Assembly (NCBI GenBank): GCA_947313745.1 | Contig: CAMZNG010000002.1 | Location: forward strand, 1-44,408 | Source: an uncultured Mycoplasmataceae bacterium | Lineage (GTDB): Bacteria; Bacillota_I; Bacilli_A; Mycoplasmatales; Hepatoplasmataceae | Length of the DNA: 44,408 nt | Direction: 5' to 3' | Part shown: one piece after another, positions 2,166-32,416 of the stretch | How the letters are laid out: the number at the start of each line of letters is the position of its first letter | How positions within the stretch are numbered: the first letter of the stretch is position 1 | Program-made: the position numbers and the translations under genes | The notes under the pieces: model-generated | Databases searched by the model: none | Told to the model about the DNA's origin: nothing | What the model saw: only the letters and a program-made list of their open reading frames with translations

Positions 2166-2240
2166 GCTCTGGTAGCTCAGTGGTAGAGCAGTTGGCTGTT
2201 AACCAATTGGTCGGAGGTTCAAATCCTCTCCGGAGCGCCA
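2166..2240 (+). tRNA. tRNA-Asn (GTT)
   Basis: A full cloverleaf: acceptor GCTCTGG pairs with CCGGAGC, the anticodon loop CTGTTAA reads GTT, the T loop is TTCAAAT, and CCA is encoded. First gene of the fourteen-tRNA run. Confidence 0.96.
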
Positions 2241-2249
2241 TTTTATTAT

Positions 2250-2325
2250 GGCCCGTTGGTGAAGCGGTTAACACACATGGTTTTCATCCATGCATTCACG
2301 GGTTCGATTCCCGTACGGGTCACCA
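2250..2325 (+). tRNA. tRNA-Glu (TTC)
   Basis: Acceptor GGCCCGT/ACGGGTC, anticodon loop TTTTCAT (TTC), T arm CGGGTTCGATTCCCG, CCA encoded. Confidence 0.96.
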
Positions 2326-2329
2326 TTTT

Positions 2330-2405
2330 GGGGCGTTAGCTCAGTTGGGAGAGCGTCTGCCTTACAAGCAGAGGGTCACAGGTTCAAGTCCTGTACGCCC
2401 CACCA
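2330..2405 (+). tRNA. tRNA-Val (TAC)
   Basis: Acceptor GGGGCGT/ACGCCCC, anticodon loop CTTACAA (TAC), standard D and T arms, CCA encoded. It starts only 4 nt after tRNA-Glu. Confidence 0.96.
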
Positions 2406-2449
2406 TCTATAATAAAATTATTTTAATTTACCAAAGTAAATTTATAACC

Positions 2450-2525
2450 GCCGTTGTAGCTCAGCAGGCAGAGCAACTGACTTGTAATCAGTAGGTCGTA
2501 GGTTCGATTCCTATCAACGGCACCA
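2450..2525 (+). tRNA. tRNA-Thr (TGT)
   Basis: Acceptor GCCGTTG/CAACGGC, anticodon loop CTTGTAA (TGT), CCA encoded. An AT-rich 44-nt spacer precedes it. Confidence 0.96.
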
Positions 2526-2532
2526 TATCTGT

Positions 2533-2617
2533 GCGGGTGTGGTGAAATTGGTAGACACGCTAGACTTAGGATCTAGTGCTTTCGGGCGTGGGGGTTCAAG
2601 TCCCTTCACCCGCACCA
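2533..2617 (+). tRNA. tRNA-Leu (TAG)
   Basis: A class II tRNA with a long variable arm (TGCTTTCGGGCGT). Acceptor GCGGGTG/CACCCGC, anticodon loop CTTAGGA (TAG), CCA encoded. Confidence 0.95.
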
Positions 2618-2654
2618 TAAATTATTTTATATTCTATAATTAATAACAAGGTAA

Positions 2655-2669
2655 GTCTATTGGATAGAC
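2655..2669 (+). other. Small hairpin between tRNA-Leu and tRNA-Arg, resembling a D-arm
   Basis: GTCTAT and ATAGAC form a perfect 6-bp stem around TGG. The text ATTGGATAGA recurs in the D arm of the following tRNA-Arg, so this could be a leftover of tRNA duplication or a processing signal. Confidence 0.4.
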
Positions 2670-2680
2670 AACCAACAAAT

Positions 2681-2757
2681 GCGCCTGTAGCTCAATTGGA
2701 TAGAGCGTTTGACTACGGATCAAAAGGTTGTGGGTTCGACTCCTATCAGACGCACCA
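2681..2757 (+). tRNA. tRNA-Arg (ACG)
   Basis: The anticodon loop CTACGGA reads ACG, whose wobble A is normally edited to inosine by TadA. Acceptor GCGCCTG faces CAGACGC with a C-A mismatch at the fourth pair, and the T stem contains two G-U pairs. CCA is encoded. Confidence 0.93.
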
Positions 2758-2761
2758 AACT

Positions 2762-2838
2762 CGGAAAGTAGCTCAGTTTGGCAGAGCACTGCGTTTGGGA
2801 CGCAGGGGTCGCAGGTTCAAGTCCTGTCTTTCCGACCA
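2762..2838 (+). tRNA. tRNA-Pro (TGG)
   Basis: Acceptor CGGAAAG/CTTTCCG, anticodon loop TTTGGGA (TGG), CCA encoded. Confidence 0.96.
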
Positions 2839-2845
2839 TTGTAAT

Positions 2846-2921
2846 GGGGTGGTAGCTCAATTGGTAGAGCACCTGTCTTGCACATAGGAGGTCGCGAGTT
2901 CGACTCTCGTCCGCTCCACCA
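2846..2921 (+). tRNA. tRNA-Ala (TGC)
   Basis: Acceptor GGGGTGG/CCGCTCC with the G3-U70 identity pair of alanine tRNA. Anticodon loop CTTGCAC (TGC), CCA encoded. Confidence 0.95.
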
Positions 2922-2953
2922 TTATATACATTTAATATAAAATATTATAATAA

Positions 2954-3030
2954 GGCGAGGTAGCTCAGCTGGTTAGAGCGTCTGGTTCATACCCAGAAGG
3001 TCGTGGGTTCGACTCCCTCTCTCGCTACCA
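2954..3030 (+). tRNA. tRNA-Met (CAT), elongator
   Basis: Anticodon loop TTCATAC (CAT). Acceptor GGCGAGG/TCTCGCT and overall sequence match the Bacillus elongator Met tRNA type. CCA is encoded. Confidence 0.88.
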
Positions 3031-3043
3031 ACTTAATTTTTAT

Positions 3044-3120
3044 GGTTCTTTAGCTCAGTTGGTTAGAGCCACCGGCTCATAACCGGTTGGTCGCTGGTTC
3101 GAGTCCAGCAAGAACCACCA
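3044..3120 (+). tRNA. tRNA-Ile2 (CAT, lysidine type)
   Basis: The anticodon loop CTCATAA reads CAT, but acceptor GGTTCTT/AAGAACC and the CCGG-rich anticodon stem match the minor isoleucine tRNA of Firmicutes. In that tRNA C34 is converted to lysidine by TilS to read AUA. Assignment to Ile rather than Met rests on this resemblance. Confidence 0.85.
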
Positions 3121-3155
3121 TATATATTATATTAATATCAAAGGCGAATATTTTT

Positions 3156-3248
3156 GGAGATGTACCCAAGTCCGGTTGAAGGGGTTGGTCTTGAAAACCA
3201 AGAGGTGGCGAAAGCTGCGCGGGGGTTCGAATCCCTCCATCTCCGCCA
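3156..3248 (+). tRNA. tRNA-Ser (TGA)
   Basis: A class II tRNA of 93 nt with a long variable arm. Acceptor GGAGATG/CATCTCC, anticodon loop CTTGAAA (TGA), CCA encoded. Confidence 0.95.
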
Positions 3249-3255
3249 TTGTTAT

Positions 3256-3332
<77 letters not shown>

Positions 3333-3333
3333 A

Positions 3334-3410
3334 GGTCCAGTAGTGAAGTGGTTTATCATGCCTCCCTGTCACGGAGGAGATCGCGGGTTCAAATCCCGTC
3401 TGGACCGCCA
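3334..3410 (+). tRNA. tRNA-Asp (GTC)
   Basis: Acceptor GGTCCAG/CTGGACC, anticodon loop CTGTCAC (GTC), CCA encoded. It starts one nucleotide after the initiator tRNA. Confidence 0.96.
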
Positions 3411-3415
3411 TTCAT

Positions 3416-3491
3416 GGCCCGGTAGCTCAGTCGGTAGAGCATGTGATTGAAGCTCACAGTGTCGGCAGTTCGATTCTGTCCCGGGCCACCA
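3416..3491 (+). tRNA. tRNA-Phe (GAA)
   Basis: Acceptor GGCCCGG/CCGGGCC, anticodon loop TTGAAGC (GAA), CCA encoded. Last gene of the run, before the terminator. Confidence 0.95.
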
Positions 3492-3548
3492 TCAATAAGA
3501 AAATGAGTGATTATATTTTTATTAATGGTTACAACCAATTTATTAAAC

Positions 3549-3571
3549 AAAGACCAAAATGGTCTTTTTTT
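3549..3571 (+). terminator. Rho-independent terminator of the large tRNA cluster
   Basis: AAAGACCA/TGGTCTTT forms an 8-bp stem with an AAA loop, then a T run. Confidence 0.85.
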
Positions 3572-3584
3572 ATATAAATAGAGT

Positions 3585-3590
3585 TATAAT
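3585..3590 (+). promoter_or_regulatory. -10 box before tRNA-Cys (and possibly pgm)
   Basis: TATAAT just after the cluster terminator and 24 nt before tRNA-Cys. No further promoter is seen before the phosphohexomutase gene. Confidence 0.6.
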
Positions 3591-3613
3591 ATACTATACA
3601 AAGAAAAATATTT

Positions 3614-3688
3614 GGAGCGGTAGCCAAGTTGGTAAGGCAGATGACTGCAACTCTTCGATCGTCGGTTCGAGTCCGATTCGCTCCTCCA
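3614..3688 (+). tRNA. tRNA-Cys (GCA)
   Basis: Acceptor GGAGCGG faces TCGCTCC, the discriminator is U, the anticodon loop CTGCAAC reads GCA, and CCA is encoded. It is transcribed separately from the fourteen-gene cluster. Confidence 0.95.
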
Positions 3689-11433: not shown

Positions 11434-12018
11434 ATGGAAAATAACACAGAGAATAGAAACAATAGAAAATGATATATTGTTCAAGTAGTTACAGGATATG
11501 AAACAAAGGTAAAAGAAGATTTACAAAACAGAGATTTTGATAAAGCTGACATTGAAGAAATTTTATTACCACAAGTTGTTTCTACAACAAAGACAGGAAA
11601 GGTAAAAAGAAAATCAATGTTTCCTGGATACCTATATGTTAAAGTAGAAATGACTGATGATTCATGATTTATTATTCGTAATACAAATTATGTTACAGGG
11701 ATTGTTGGATCATCTGGACAAAGAACAAAACCAACTCCAGTAAGAGAAGTTGATATTTTAAAAATTAAAGAAAGAGTAATTGAAGAAGAATTAAGATTTC
11801 AAAATATTGAATCAGGAACTAAAGGTAAGAAACCAATAACTGAATTAAATTATAAAATTGGAGATAGTGTTGAAATAATGAGTGGAGAATTTAAGGAACA
11901 GAAAGCAAAGCTTTTATCAATATCATATGAAACTCAAAAAGTTGAAGTAGAAATTGAGTTCTTTGGAAGAATGACAAACGTTAAAGTTGATATTGACCAA
12001 ATTAAAAAAATTGATTAG
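11434..12018 (+). CDS. nusG: Transcription termination/antitermination factor NusG
   Basis: A 194-residue protein with the NGN domain (KWYIVQVVTGYETKVKEDL, then KRKSMFPGYLYVKVEM and NYVTGIVG) followed by a KOW domain (IGDSVEIMSGEFKEQKAKLL). NusG binds the polymerase clamp, modulates pausing and links RNA polymerase to the ribosome. AAAGGA 9-13 nt before the ATG is the ribosome binding site. Last gene before the L11 operon promoter and leader. Confidence 0.97.
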
Positions 12019-12035
12019 AAAAAATATATATTTGA

Positions 12036-12041
12036 TATAAT
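12036..12041 (+). promoter_or_regulatory. -10 box of the rplK operon
   Basis: TATAAT 18 nt after the nusG stop. The predicted start near 12048 begins the structured leader. Confidence 0.65.
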
Positions 12042-12047
12042 AGAAGA

Positions 12048-12170
12048 GTAAATAACTTAAGATAGTAGCTGTCGTAGAACTAAATTGCTACCGAGGTTTA
12101 AAATTTATTATATTATAATATAATAAATTTAAGATGCATCGGTAGATATCCAGTGCGTCTTATTTTTTTA
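12048..12170 (+). promoter_or_regulatory. Structured leader/attenuator resembling the L10 leader, placed before rplK
   Basis: The region folds into competing helices. AAGAT (12059-12063) can close a long-range stem with GTCTT (12157-12161). GTAGC (12065-12069) pairs with GCTAC (12087-12091), while CTACCGA (12088-12094) pairs with TCGGTAG (12139-12145). A perfect 30-nt palindrome at 12101-12130 lies between the last two arms. AAGATGCA (12131-12138) pairs with TGCGTCTT (12154-12161) and is followed by seven Ts: an intrinsic terminator that excludes the other pairings. The order AAGA-stem, CTACCGAGG, variable stem, terminator resembles the Firmicute L10 leader, at which L10(L12)4 represses its own operon. 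In those genomes it precedes rplJ; here it precedes rplK. The covariance match is from memory. Confidence 0.7.
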
Positions 12171-12202
12171 CAAAAACAAATATAAGAGAGAGGAGAACTA
12201 TT

Positions 12203-12655
12203 ATGGCAAAAAAAGTAACAAGAATTGCAAAATTACAATTTAATGCTGGCCAAGCAAAACCAGGACCTGAACTTGCAGGATTAGGTATTGACATGGGTGG
12301 ATTTACAAAACAATTTAATGATGCAACTAGAGATAGAAATGGTACAGTTGTTCCAGTGATAATCACTGCATACGATGATAGATCATTTGAGTTTGTTTTA
12401 AAAACAACTCCTGCTTCTAACTTACTAATTAAAGCTGCTGGTATTTCAAAGGGTGCTGCAAATTCTTTAAAAGAAAATGTTGGTACAGTAACAATGAAAC
12501 AACTAGAAGAAATAGCAGAATATAAATTAGAAGATTTGAATACTGATTCAATGGATGCAGCAATATCAATGTTAAAAGGAACAGCGAAAAACATGGGAAT
12601 TAAAATTGCTAATGATAACTCTGCTCAACTTGAAAATAGTGGGGAGGATGAATAA
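12203..12655 (+). CDS. rplK: 50S ribosomal protein L11
   Basis: A 150-residue protein with the L11 N-terminal domain (LQFNAGQAKPGPELAGLGID, then MGGFTKQFNDATRD) and the RNA-binding C-terminal domain (PASNLLIKAAGISKGA, then GTVTMKQLEEIAEYK). It binds the GTPase-associated centre of 23S rRNA. It has a ten-residue acidic C-terminal extension (NSAQLENSGEDE) beyond the usual end. A strong GAGAGGAGAA ribosome binding site precedes it. The stop overlaps the rplA start. Confidence 0.97.
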   Translation: MAKKVTRIAKLQFNAGQAKPGPELAGLGIDMGGFTKQFNDATRDRNGTVVPVIITAYDDRSFEFVLKTTPASNLLIKAAGISKGAANSLKENVGTVTMKQLEEIAEYKLEDLNTDSMDAAISMLKGTAKNMGIKIANDNSAQLENSGEDE

Positions 12656-13332
12656 TGACTAAGAATTATAAAAATGCAATTTCAAAAATTAAAGAAGATA
12701 AACTTTATACAATTGAAGAAGCAATAAAATTAGCTAAAGAAATATCATTTGAAAAATTCGACACATCATTTAATCTTTCTATGAATCTAAATTTAGATAC
12801 AACACATGCAGAGCAACAATTGAGAGGATCTATTGTTCTTCCAAATGGAACAGGAAAGACAGCTAAAGTTTTAGTTGTGGCTGATTCAAAAGATCATGAC
12901 ATTGCAAAAGAAGCGAAGGCAGATTATGTAGGTGGAATTGAAATAATGGAAAAAATAAAAATTGAAAATTGATTTGATTTTGACTTCATTGTTACAACAC
13001 CAGACTTTATGCCAAAGATTGCAAAGTATGGAAGAATATTAGGACCGAAAGGATTGATGCCAAATCCAAAATTAGGAACAGTAACAAACAATATAAAAAA
13101 AACAATTGAAAATATTAAAAAAGGACAAATTGAATATAAAACAGATAAGGAAGGAATTGTATCTTCTATATTTGGAAAAAAATCATTTGATGATAAAAAA
13201 TTAGTTGAAAACTATAATGCAATATTTAACTTGGTTAAAAGTAAAAGACCTGCAGCAGTTAAAGGAACATATATTTATACTTCAACTATTTCAACAACAA
13301 TGGGTCCAGGTATTAAAATAAAGGTTGATTAA
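12655..13332 (+). CDS. rplA: 50S ribosomal protein L1
   Basis: A 225-residue protein with the L1 signature GRILGPKGLMPNPKLGTVT (shown within the frame near residues 121-140) and the first domain pattern LRGSIVLPNGTGK. L1 forms the mobile stalk at the E site and can repress its own operon by binding mRNA. The start ATG overlaps the rplK stop. Only 12 nt separate it from rplJ, so there is no room for an rplJ leader. Confidence 0.97.
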
Positions 13333-13344
13333 GGAGAAATAGAT

Positions 13345-13860
13345 ATGCCAATTACAAGACAACAAAAAGAACAACACGTTGCAGAAATTAAAGATCTTAT
13401 TTCAAAATCAAGTATTATAATTGTTTGAGATTATCTTGGATTAAATGCACATGAAATTTCAGAAGTAAGAGCAAAGTTAAAAAAATCAAATGCTGTTAAT
13501 AAGGTTTACAAAAACTTAATAGCAAAAATAGCTTTTGAAGAAAGTGGAAAGAAAGAAATTTCTGAGTCATTAAAAGGACCATCATCATTCTTATTTATAG
13601 AAGATGAAGATTCTAATGCGCTTAGAGATTTAAATAAATTTATAAAAGAGAATGATAAATTATCATTCAAAGCTGGATATATAGATGGAGTGTTCTATGA
13701 CAAAGAAGGAGTTGCAGAAATAGCTGGACTGCCTTCAAAAGACAATTTACTATCAATGTTATTATCAGCATTACAAGGAACAATGAGAAATCTTGCATAC
13801 GCAATTTCACAAATAAATAATGAAGAACCTAGTAATGAAGATAAAACAAAAAAAGAATAA
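13345..13860 (+). CDS. rplJ: 50S ribosomal protein L10
   Basis: A 171-residue stalk base protein: ITRQQKEQHVAEIKDLIS, VRAKLKKSNAVNKVYKNL and GLPSKDNLLSMLLSALQG are family features. The C-terminal helix that carries L7/L12 dimers follows. It has an AAGGAG ribosome binding site 8-13 nt before ATG. In Firmicutes L10 with L7/L12 binds the L10 leader RNA; here the candidate leader is two genes upstream, before rplK. Confidence 0.95.
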
Positions 13861-13899: not shown

Positions 13900-14256
13900 A
13901 TGGCAATAAAAGTAAGTGATTTTATAAAAGAATTAAAGGAAATGAAAGTTGCAGATCTAAATGAATTAGTTAAAGCAATCGAAGAAGAATTTAATGTTAC
14001 AGCAGCAGCACCTGTTGCAGCAGCAGCATCAACAGAGGTAGCAGCAGCAACAGAGAAGTCAGTTGTACTTATCAATGGTGGAGCAAACAAAATAGCTTCA
14101 ATAAAAGCAATTAGAGAAATAATGGGATTAGCTCTTATGGATGCTAAAAAATTCGTTGATAACGGTGGGACAGTTAAAGAAAACATCCCTACTGAAGAAG
14201 CTGAAGCTTTAGTAGCAAAATTAAAAGAAGTTGGCGCAGAAGTTGAACTTAAATAG
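13900..14256 (+). CDS. rplL: 50S ribosomal protein L7/L12
   Basis: A 118-residue acidic protein with an N-terminal dimerisation domain ([20 protein letters not shown]), an alanine-rich hinge ([18 protein letters not shown]) and the C-terminal factor-binding domain ([20 protein letters not shown], ending VGAEVELK). It recruits translation GTPases. An AAAAGGAG ribosome binding site precedes it. Confidence 0.97.
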
Positions 14257-32075: not shown

Positions 32076-32161
32076 GGAGGGGTAGTGAAGTCTGGCTAAA
32101 CACGACTGGCTGTAAACCAGTTCCTTCGGGTTCGGGGGTTCGAATCCCTCCCCCTCCACCA
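32076..32161 (+). tRNA. tRNA-Tyr (GTA)
   Basis: A class II tRNA with a long variable arm. Acceptor GGAGGGG/CCCCTCC, anticodon loop CTGTAAA (GTA), CCA encoded. Confidence 0.95.
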
Positions 32162-32169
32162 TTTTAAAT

Positions 32170-32244
32170 TGGCCTGTAGCCAAGCGGTAAGGCAACTGGT
32201 TTTGATCCAGTCATGCGTAGGTTCAAATCCTGCCAGGCCAGCCA
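32170..32244 (+). tRNA. tRNA-Gln (TTG)
   Basis: Acceptor TGGCCTG/CAGGCCA, anticodon loop TTTTGAT (TTG), CCA encoded. Confidence 0.95.
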
Positions 32245-32250
32245 TATTAT

Positions 32251-32326
32251 GATCCCATAGCTCAGCTGGTAGAGCAATTGGCTTTTAACCAATGGGTCGA
32301 AGGTTCAAGTCCTTCTGGGATCACCA
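32251..32326 (+). tRNA. tRNA-Lys (TTT)
   Basis: Acceptor GATCCCA/TGGGATC, anticodon loop CTTTTAA (TTT), CCA encoded. Confidence 0.95.
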
Positions 32327-32329
32327 TCT

Positions 32330-32416
32330 GCCCAGGTGGTGGAATTGGTAGACACGAGGGATTTAAGCTCCCTTGGCAGTAATGCTGTGTGGGTTCAAGT
32401 CCCACTCTGGGCACCA
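32330..32416 (+). tRNA. tRNA-Leu (TAA)
   Basis: A class II tRNA with a long variable arm. Acceptor GCCCAGG/TCTGGGC, anticodon loop ATTTAAG (TAA), CCA encoded. Second leucine tRNA of the window. Confidence 0.95.

Follow-up and report, generated by a model that had tools for sequence, protein, structure and literature searches.

An L10 leader RNA in front of rplK in one clade of Hepatoplasmataceae, with a predicted attenuator heading rplK-rplA-rplJ-rplL

The window, by which we mean the whole 44,408-nt stretch of DNA analysed here, belongs to a 695-kb genome in 24 contigs (G000) that falls within the Hepatoplasmataceae, near Candidatus Tyloplasma and Hepatoplasma, and in the same genus as G008. 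Members of this family live as symbionts in the gut of isopods and other invertebrates. UGA is read as tryptophan in this genome; translation of secE, nusG, rplA and rplJ requires code 4. The window holds two clusters of tRNA genes, at 2166-3688 (15 genes) and 32076-32416 (4 genes). The locus considered here begins behind nusG, whose stop codon at 12018 is separated from the rplK ATG at 12203 by a 184-nt gap, and continues with the genes for L11, L1, L10 and L12:

12190-12195, + strand: rplK Shine-Dalgarno sequence GAGGAG, 7 nt before the ATG at 12203
12203-12655, + strand: rplK (L11), open reading frame; product 64% identical to the Ca. Hepatoplasma crinochetorum Ps protein
12655-13332, + strand: rplA (L1), by tblastn and translation in code 4; 1-nt overlap with rplK, one in-frame UGA read as tryptophan
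13345-13860, + strand: rplJ (L10), by translation in code 4; 12 nt after rplA
13900-14256, + strand: rplL (L12), open reading frame

When compared with all Rfam families by cmscan, the gap between nusG and rplK contains a single RNA, which covers the full length of the L10_leader model:

12038-12174, + strand: L10_leader (RF00557) match, model positions 1-138 of 138

With 46.4 bits the match exceeds the curated cut-off, a gathering score of 44; its E-value is 1.9e-4 when the whole window is searched with all 4227 Rfam families, and 7.1e-7 genome-wide, where it is the only RF00557 match. Because circularity had to be avoided, the window's own family was kept out of the training of a hold-out covariance model, R1, which was built from 38 recognition hairpins, all located before rplJ and all from other families. 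R1 recovers positions 12051-12102 with 42.6 bits and an E-value of 1.2e-8 per genome, and gives one good match per genome in all ten Hepatoplasmataceae genomes of the set (G000 to G009, grouped by kinship). A second, weak R1 match in G004 (C1:314536, E 0.0028) lies inside the coding gene of a YchF-like GTPase and was discarded as a chance match. With the exception of G007, the leaders found before rplK outside the window score below the Rfam cut-off, and those of G006, G009 and G002 are missed by the standard model even at E 5 and are found by sequence reading and R1. In an alignment of the ten family leaders with ten outsiders, the nine pairs of the outer and inner hairpin stems are paired in 96.1% of cells, and both-side changes occur in eight of the nine, while controls with slid partners pair in 16-52%; the apical helix was excluded from this count, as MAFFT had misaligned the apical loops. 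The recognition hairpin is kept before rplK in seven further genomes, which argues that the leader-like fold at this site is not a chance likeness. An earlier note on this DNA had proposed a resemblance to the Firmicute L10 leader and named an RF00557 search as a check, which comes out positive; Rfam score, hold-out model, covariation and synteny agree and, on these comparative grounds, the element belongs to the L10 leader RNA family.

The leader and its promoter can be resolved into the following parts:

12033-12041, + strand: predicted extended -10 promoter (TGATATAAT), by sequence reading, with a start near 12048
12054-12098, + strand: anti-antiterminator, or L10 recognition hairpin, by R1 match and covariation
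12058-12062, + strand: first strand of the predicted kink-turn (UAA bulge, then GA), with the partner strand CGA at 12092-12094
12081-12083, + strand: unpaired UAA, predicted second L10 recognition element, aligned with the conserved UUAA of RF00557
12088-12145, + strand: antiterminator, by folding
12130-12169, + strand: intrinsic terminator, hairpin 12130-12162 followed by seven U at 12163-12169

The promoter box is not listed by a simple promoter scan, which demands a -35 box; TGNTAWAAT-like boxes occupy the equivalent place in most relatives and also precede the leaderless rplK of G001. In the recognition hairpin, an outer stem (AACU 12054-57 with GGUU 12095-98) and an inner stem (GUAGC 12065-69 with GCUAC 12087-91) flank a kink-turn-like internal loop, UAAGAUA / CGA, in which the alignment columns of AGA and of the A in CGA do not vary and CGA as a whole is invariant or nearly so; the predicted AGA/CGA element would thus adopt kink-turn geometry. 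The role of the UAA in L10 recognition is taken from earlier work (PMC4538822). By itself the recognition hairpin folds at -5 kcal/mol, no better than shuffled sequences, and the B. subtilis recognition hairpin is likewise flexible without protein (PMC4538822). The genome's own 23S rRNA shares the AGAYAG ... CGAGG signature of the leader, with AGACAG ... UCGAGG strands in its L10/L11 region (L250 near 2581), which is consistent with mimicry.

Downstream, CTACCGA (12088-12094) pairs with TCGGTAG (12139-12145) and, together with the helix 12096-99:12132-35, encloses an AT-rich hairpin, 12101-13:12118-30; this antiterminator fold reaches -20.1 kcal/mol (z -5.43, none of 200 shuffles as good) and has counterparts in seven relatives, weak in G006. 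The terminator hairpin, which a simple terminator scan does not list and folding detects, reaches -14.3 kcal/mol (z -5.15, again 0/200 shuffles as good), and terminators with changed pairs stand at the matching position in G008 and G009. The antiterminator shares bases 12088-12091 with the recognition hairpin and bases 12132-12135 and 12139 with the terminator; because it overlaps both, the three predicted helices are mutually exclusive, and the mutually exclusive helices and seven-T terminator described in the earlier note are borne out by folding, overlaps and sequence. From the end of the U-tract to the rplK ATG there are 33 nt, which contain the Shine-Dalgarno sequence and in which no leader peptide was seen.

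This arrangement would allow attenuation as follows. Transcription would start near 12048. With more free L10(L12)4 than 23S rRNA to receive it, the complex would bind the kink-turn/UAA hairpin (12054-12098) and keep CUACCGA from pairing downstream, whereupon the terminator (12130-12169) would form and transcription would end ahead of rplK. When L10-L12 is scarce, CUACCGA would pair with UCGGUAG, the terminator arm would be tied up, and the polymerase would continue into rplK-rplA-rplJ-rplL. In the eight genomes that carry the leader before rplK, at most about 15 nt separate rplK from rplA and rplA from rplJ, which is too short for internal leaders, and these genomes show no R1 match before rplJ. 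With one leader ahead of the four genes, a single loop would set L11, L1, L10 and L12 and take over from two separate circuits, L1 acting on rplKA and L10 on rplJL, and L10-L12 should repress L11 and L1. We give a probability of about 0.8 to this reading as a whole, namely that an L10 leader moved from rplJ to rplK, acts there as an attenuator, and places all four proteins under one L10-L12 loop. The earlier note's wording, all four stalk proteins, is loose: the L7/L12 stalk has L10, L12 and, at its base, L11, while L1 forms the other stalk of the ribosome (PMC10931766).

The unusual position is shared by relatives of the window. The leader stands before rplK in eight of the ten Hepatoplasmataceae genomes (G000 and G003-G009), and before rplJ in G001, in G002 and in 145/145 other Bacilli genomes checked, among the matches listed (those of family f8, for example, are left out). 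For placement, the loci were searched by tblastn with the operon proteins of the window; by this measure the leader match ends 29-80 nt before rplK in G000, G003, G004, G005, G007 and G008 and the leader precedes rplJ in all 155 other loci (146 distinct genomes, G001 included); G006 and G009 (rplK) and G002 (rplJ) were placed by direct reading and R1. G001 has 116 nt between rplA and rplJ, with the leader inside, and in G002 rplJ is not adjacent to rplA. The earlier note had the element displaced from rplJ to the front of rplK, leaving rplA and rplJ 12 nt apart with no leader; the spacing is exact (stop 13332, start 13345), and synteny across related genomes supports the displacement. In a maximum-likelihood tree of NusG, L11, L1, L10, L12 and RpoB, all from the same neighbourhood, the eight relocated genomes are monophyletic (bootstrap 100), with G001 as the next sister (100) and then G002 (100), so that a single relocation suffices. 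Judged by synteny and this tree, the rplK position is a clade-wide derived state in the Hepatoplasmataceae and no quirk of one window, and the best explanation is a relocation in the lineage from which Tyloplasma, Hepatoplasma and their sister lineage descend.

The site now occupied by the leader holds another hairpin in most Bacilli, GUGGGAG ... ACCAC or a close form of it. A pattern search finds GUGGGAG...ACCAC in 94 loci, those of G002 and other mollicutes among them, and does not find it before rplK in the window, the relocated clade and G001, that is, in nine family genomes besides G002. As a 5' hairpin of rplK that is strongly conserved in Bacilli and mollicutes, GTGGGAG...ACCAC(ATCACGGAC) was noted in L007-L076 and others, for example L022, L024 and L036; no Rfam family reached its cut-off on the relatives' rplK hairpin in the loci tested. 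In Firmicutes, the repression of rplK-rplA by L1 acts at mimics of its 23S site that lie ahead of rplK, of rplA or of both, and a control site for L1 lies before rplK in both Proteobacteria and Firmicutes (PMC10931766). Because L1 sites lie in these places, the GUGGGAG...ACCAC hairpin is probably an L1 regulatory site and, as the relocated clade is devoid of it, L10-L12 control has probably replaced L1 control of rplKA. The events could be ordered in two steps, in which the L1-type hairpin would have been lost in the ancestor of G001 and the eight, after which the L10 leader would have been placed behind the rplK promoter, and have gone from rplJ, in the eight. At the rplK/rplA junction of the window (12637-12665), AGUGGGGAGGAUGAAUAAUGACU is similar to the GUGGGAG strand of this probable L1 site and is a possible remaining L1 site before rplA.

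The output stage does not seem to be uniform within the clade. Leader-end terminator hairpins are found in G000, G007, G008 and G009, where bases have changed and pairing is kept; a strong U-tract follows in G000 and G007, a weak one (3 U in 8) in G008 and G009. In the Hepatoplasma genomes G003-G006, sequence reading and folding reveal no terminator, so that the output stage differs inside the relocated clade. G003-G005 retain an antiterminator-like helix (UACUGAGGUU : ACUUUAGUA side) of -9.4 to -11 kcal/mol, and the interval between leader and rplK in the Hepatoplasma loci L054, L055 and L107 shows conserved ACUUUAGU / ACUAAAGU and ACUUUU / AAAGGUU pairs. Downstream ACUUUU...AAAGGUU in G003-G005 could hide the ribosome-binding site, which suggests a translational output in place of transcription attenuation in Hepatoplasma. 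No clear terminator was seen in G001 and G002, where the leader is at rplJ. Before rplJ of G002 (L178, about 1400-1500), the L10 recognition hairpin lies entirely inside a long helix, AUGACUUAGU...ACUAAGUCAU, a putative expression platform of yet another kind. It is an evenly balanced matter whether the fuller account holds throughout, in which L10-L12 feedback replaced L1 feedback at rplKA, merging two classical autoregulatory circuits, and the relocated hairpin was coupled to termination in Tyloplasma and G007 and probably, in Hepatoplasma, to masking of the ribosome-binding site of rplK.

Some alternatives accept the leader and change what it governs or senses. The attenuator might mainly target rplKA, with rplJL expressed mostly from its own promoter in rplA, in which case the four genes would not be set together. 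Internal promoters are common in ribosomal-protein operons, and consensus scans list promoter-like sites inside rplA and rplJ, though they found 17 sites where chance predicts 20.4. Under such an arrangement, however, L10-L12 would regulate L11 and L1 but not itself, which makes little sense as feedback, and both the absence of a second leader from the genome and the short rplK/rplA/rplJ gaps of the eight genomes speak against it, so we hold it to be improbable. Slightly less credit still is due to a fold that has been kept while sensing another ligand, such as L1 or L11: the front of rplK is indeed where L1 control is located in Proteobacteria and Firmicutes (PMC10931766), but the eight relocated leaders retain the AGA/CGA kink-turn, the UAA and the covarying stems, and the GUGGGAG...ACCAC L1-type hairpin is absent there.

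The least likely reading discards the leader altogether and sees a mere terminator of the secE-nusG unit that resembles an L10 leader by chance. The element does sit after nusG and could also stop read-through transcripts, but its score above the Rfam cut-off, the R1 E-value of 1.2e-8, the covariation, and its conservation in eight genomes, four of which have no terminator, all oppose this; read as a secE-nusG terminator only, it is contradicted by covariation and the R1 match. A further proposal concerns the route only and is compatible with relocation to rplK and joint L10-L12 control: a second copy may have arisen before rplK, by duplication or transfer, and the rplJ copy been lost later. 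Direct movement and copying followed by loss are indistinguishable in the present data, and none of the ten family genomes was seen to carry copies before both rplK and rplJ; we rate the copying route as possible and somewhat unlikely. Its variant by transfer is opposed by the rplJ leader of G001, whose GUAGC:GCUAC and GGUU strands recur in the rplK leaders, so that a foreign origin is unlikely.

The usual description of a ribosomal-protein leader ties it to the gene whose product it senses. Here an L10 leader has changed the genes that it heads, apparently in a single event of which G001 preserves an intermediate stage, and the case shows how feedback circuits can merge in shrinking symbiont genomes. 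The RNA family and the mechanism are known; in the literature searched, mostly open-access journals, we did not find an L10 leader before rplK, the apparent replacement of L1 control, or the restriction of this arrangement to one clade.

The closest known system is the rplJL leader of B. subtilis, for which the same three-structure attenuation logic has been proven in vitro and in vivo (PMC4538822). The window's leader shares with it the kink-turn and UAA hairpin (PMC4538822; RF00557) and the overlapping anti-antiterminator, antiterminator and terminator, which are here predicted. The B. subtilis leader lies ahead of rplJ and controls rplJL, the window's leader lies ahead of rplK, as the first element of rplKAJL; location before rplJ is a usual property of L10 leaders and is not part of the RF00557 covariance model. 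The leader peptide reported after the terminator in Bacillus, an extra layer and not the switch, is likewise not seen in the window. With the E. coli rplJL leader, the element would share recognition through mimicry of the 23S rRNA site (PMC10931766); in E. coli L10 represses translation, whereas the window's leader has a predicted transcription terminator, and the relocated Hepatoplasma leaders may use translation, as E. coli does. Finally, it occupies the same place as the L1 regulatory site of Proteobacteria and Firmicutes, the rplK 5' leader (PMC10931766), but with a different hairpin from the GUGGGAG...ACCAC of Bacilli and, as predicted, for a different protein.
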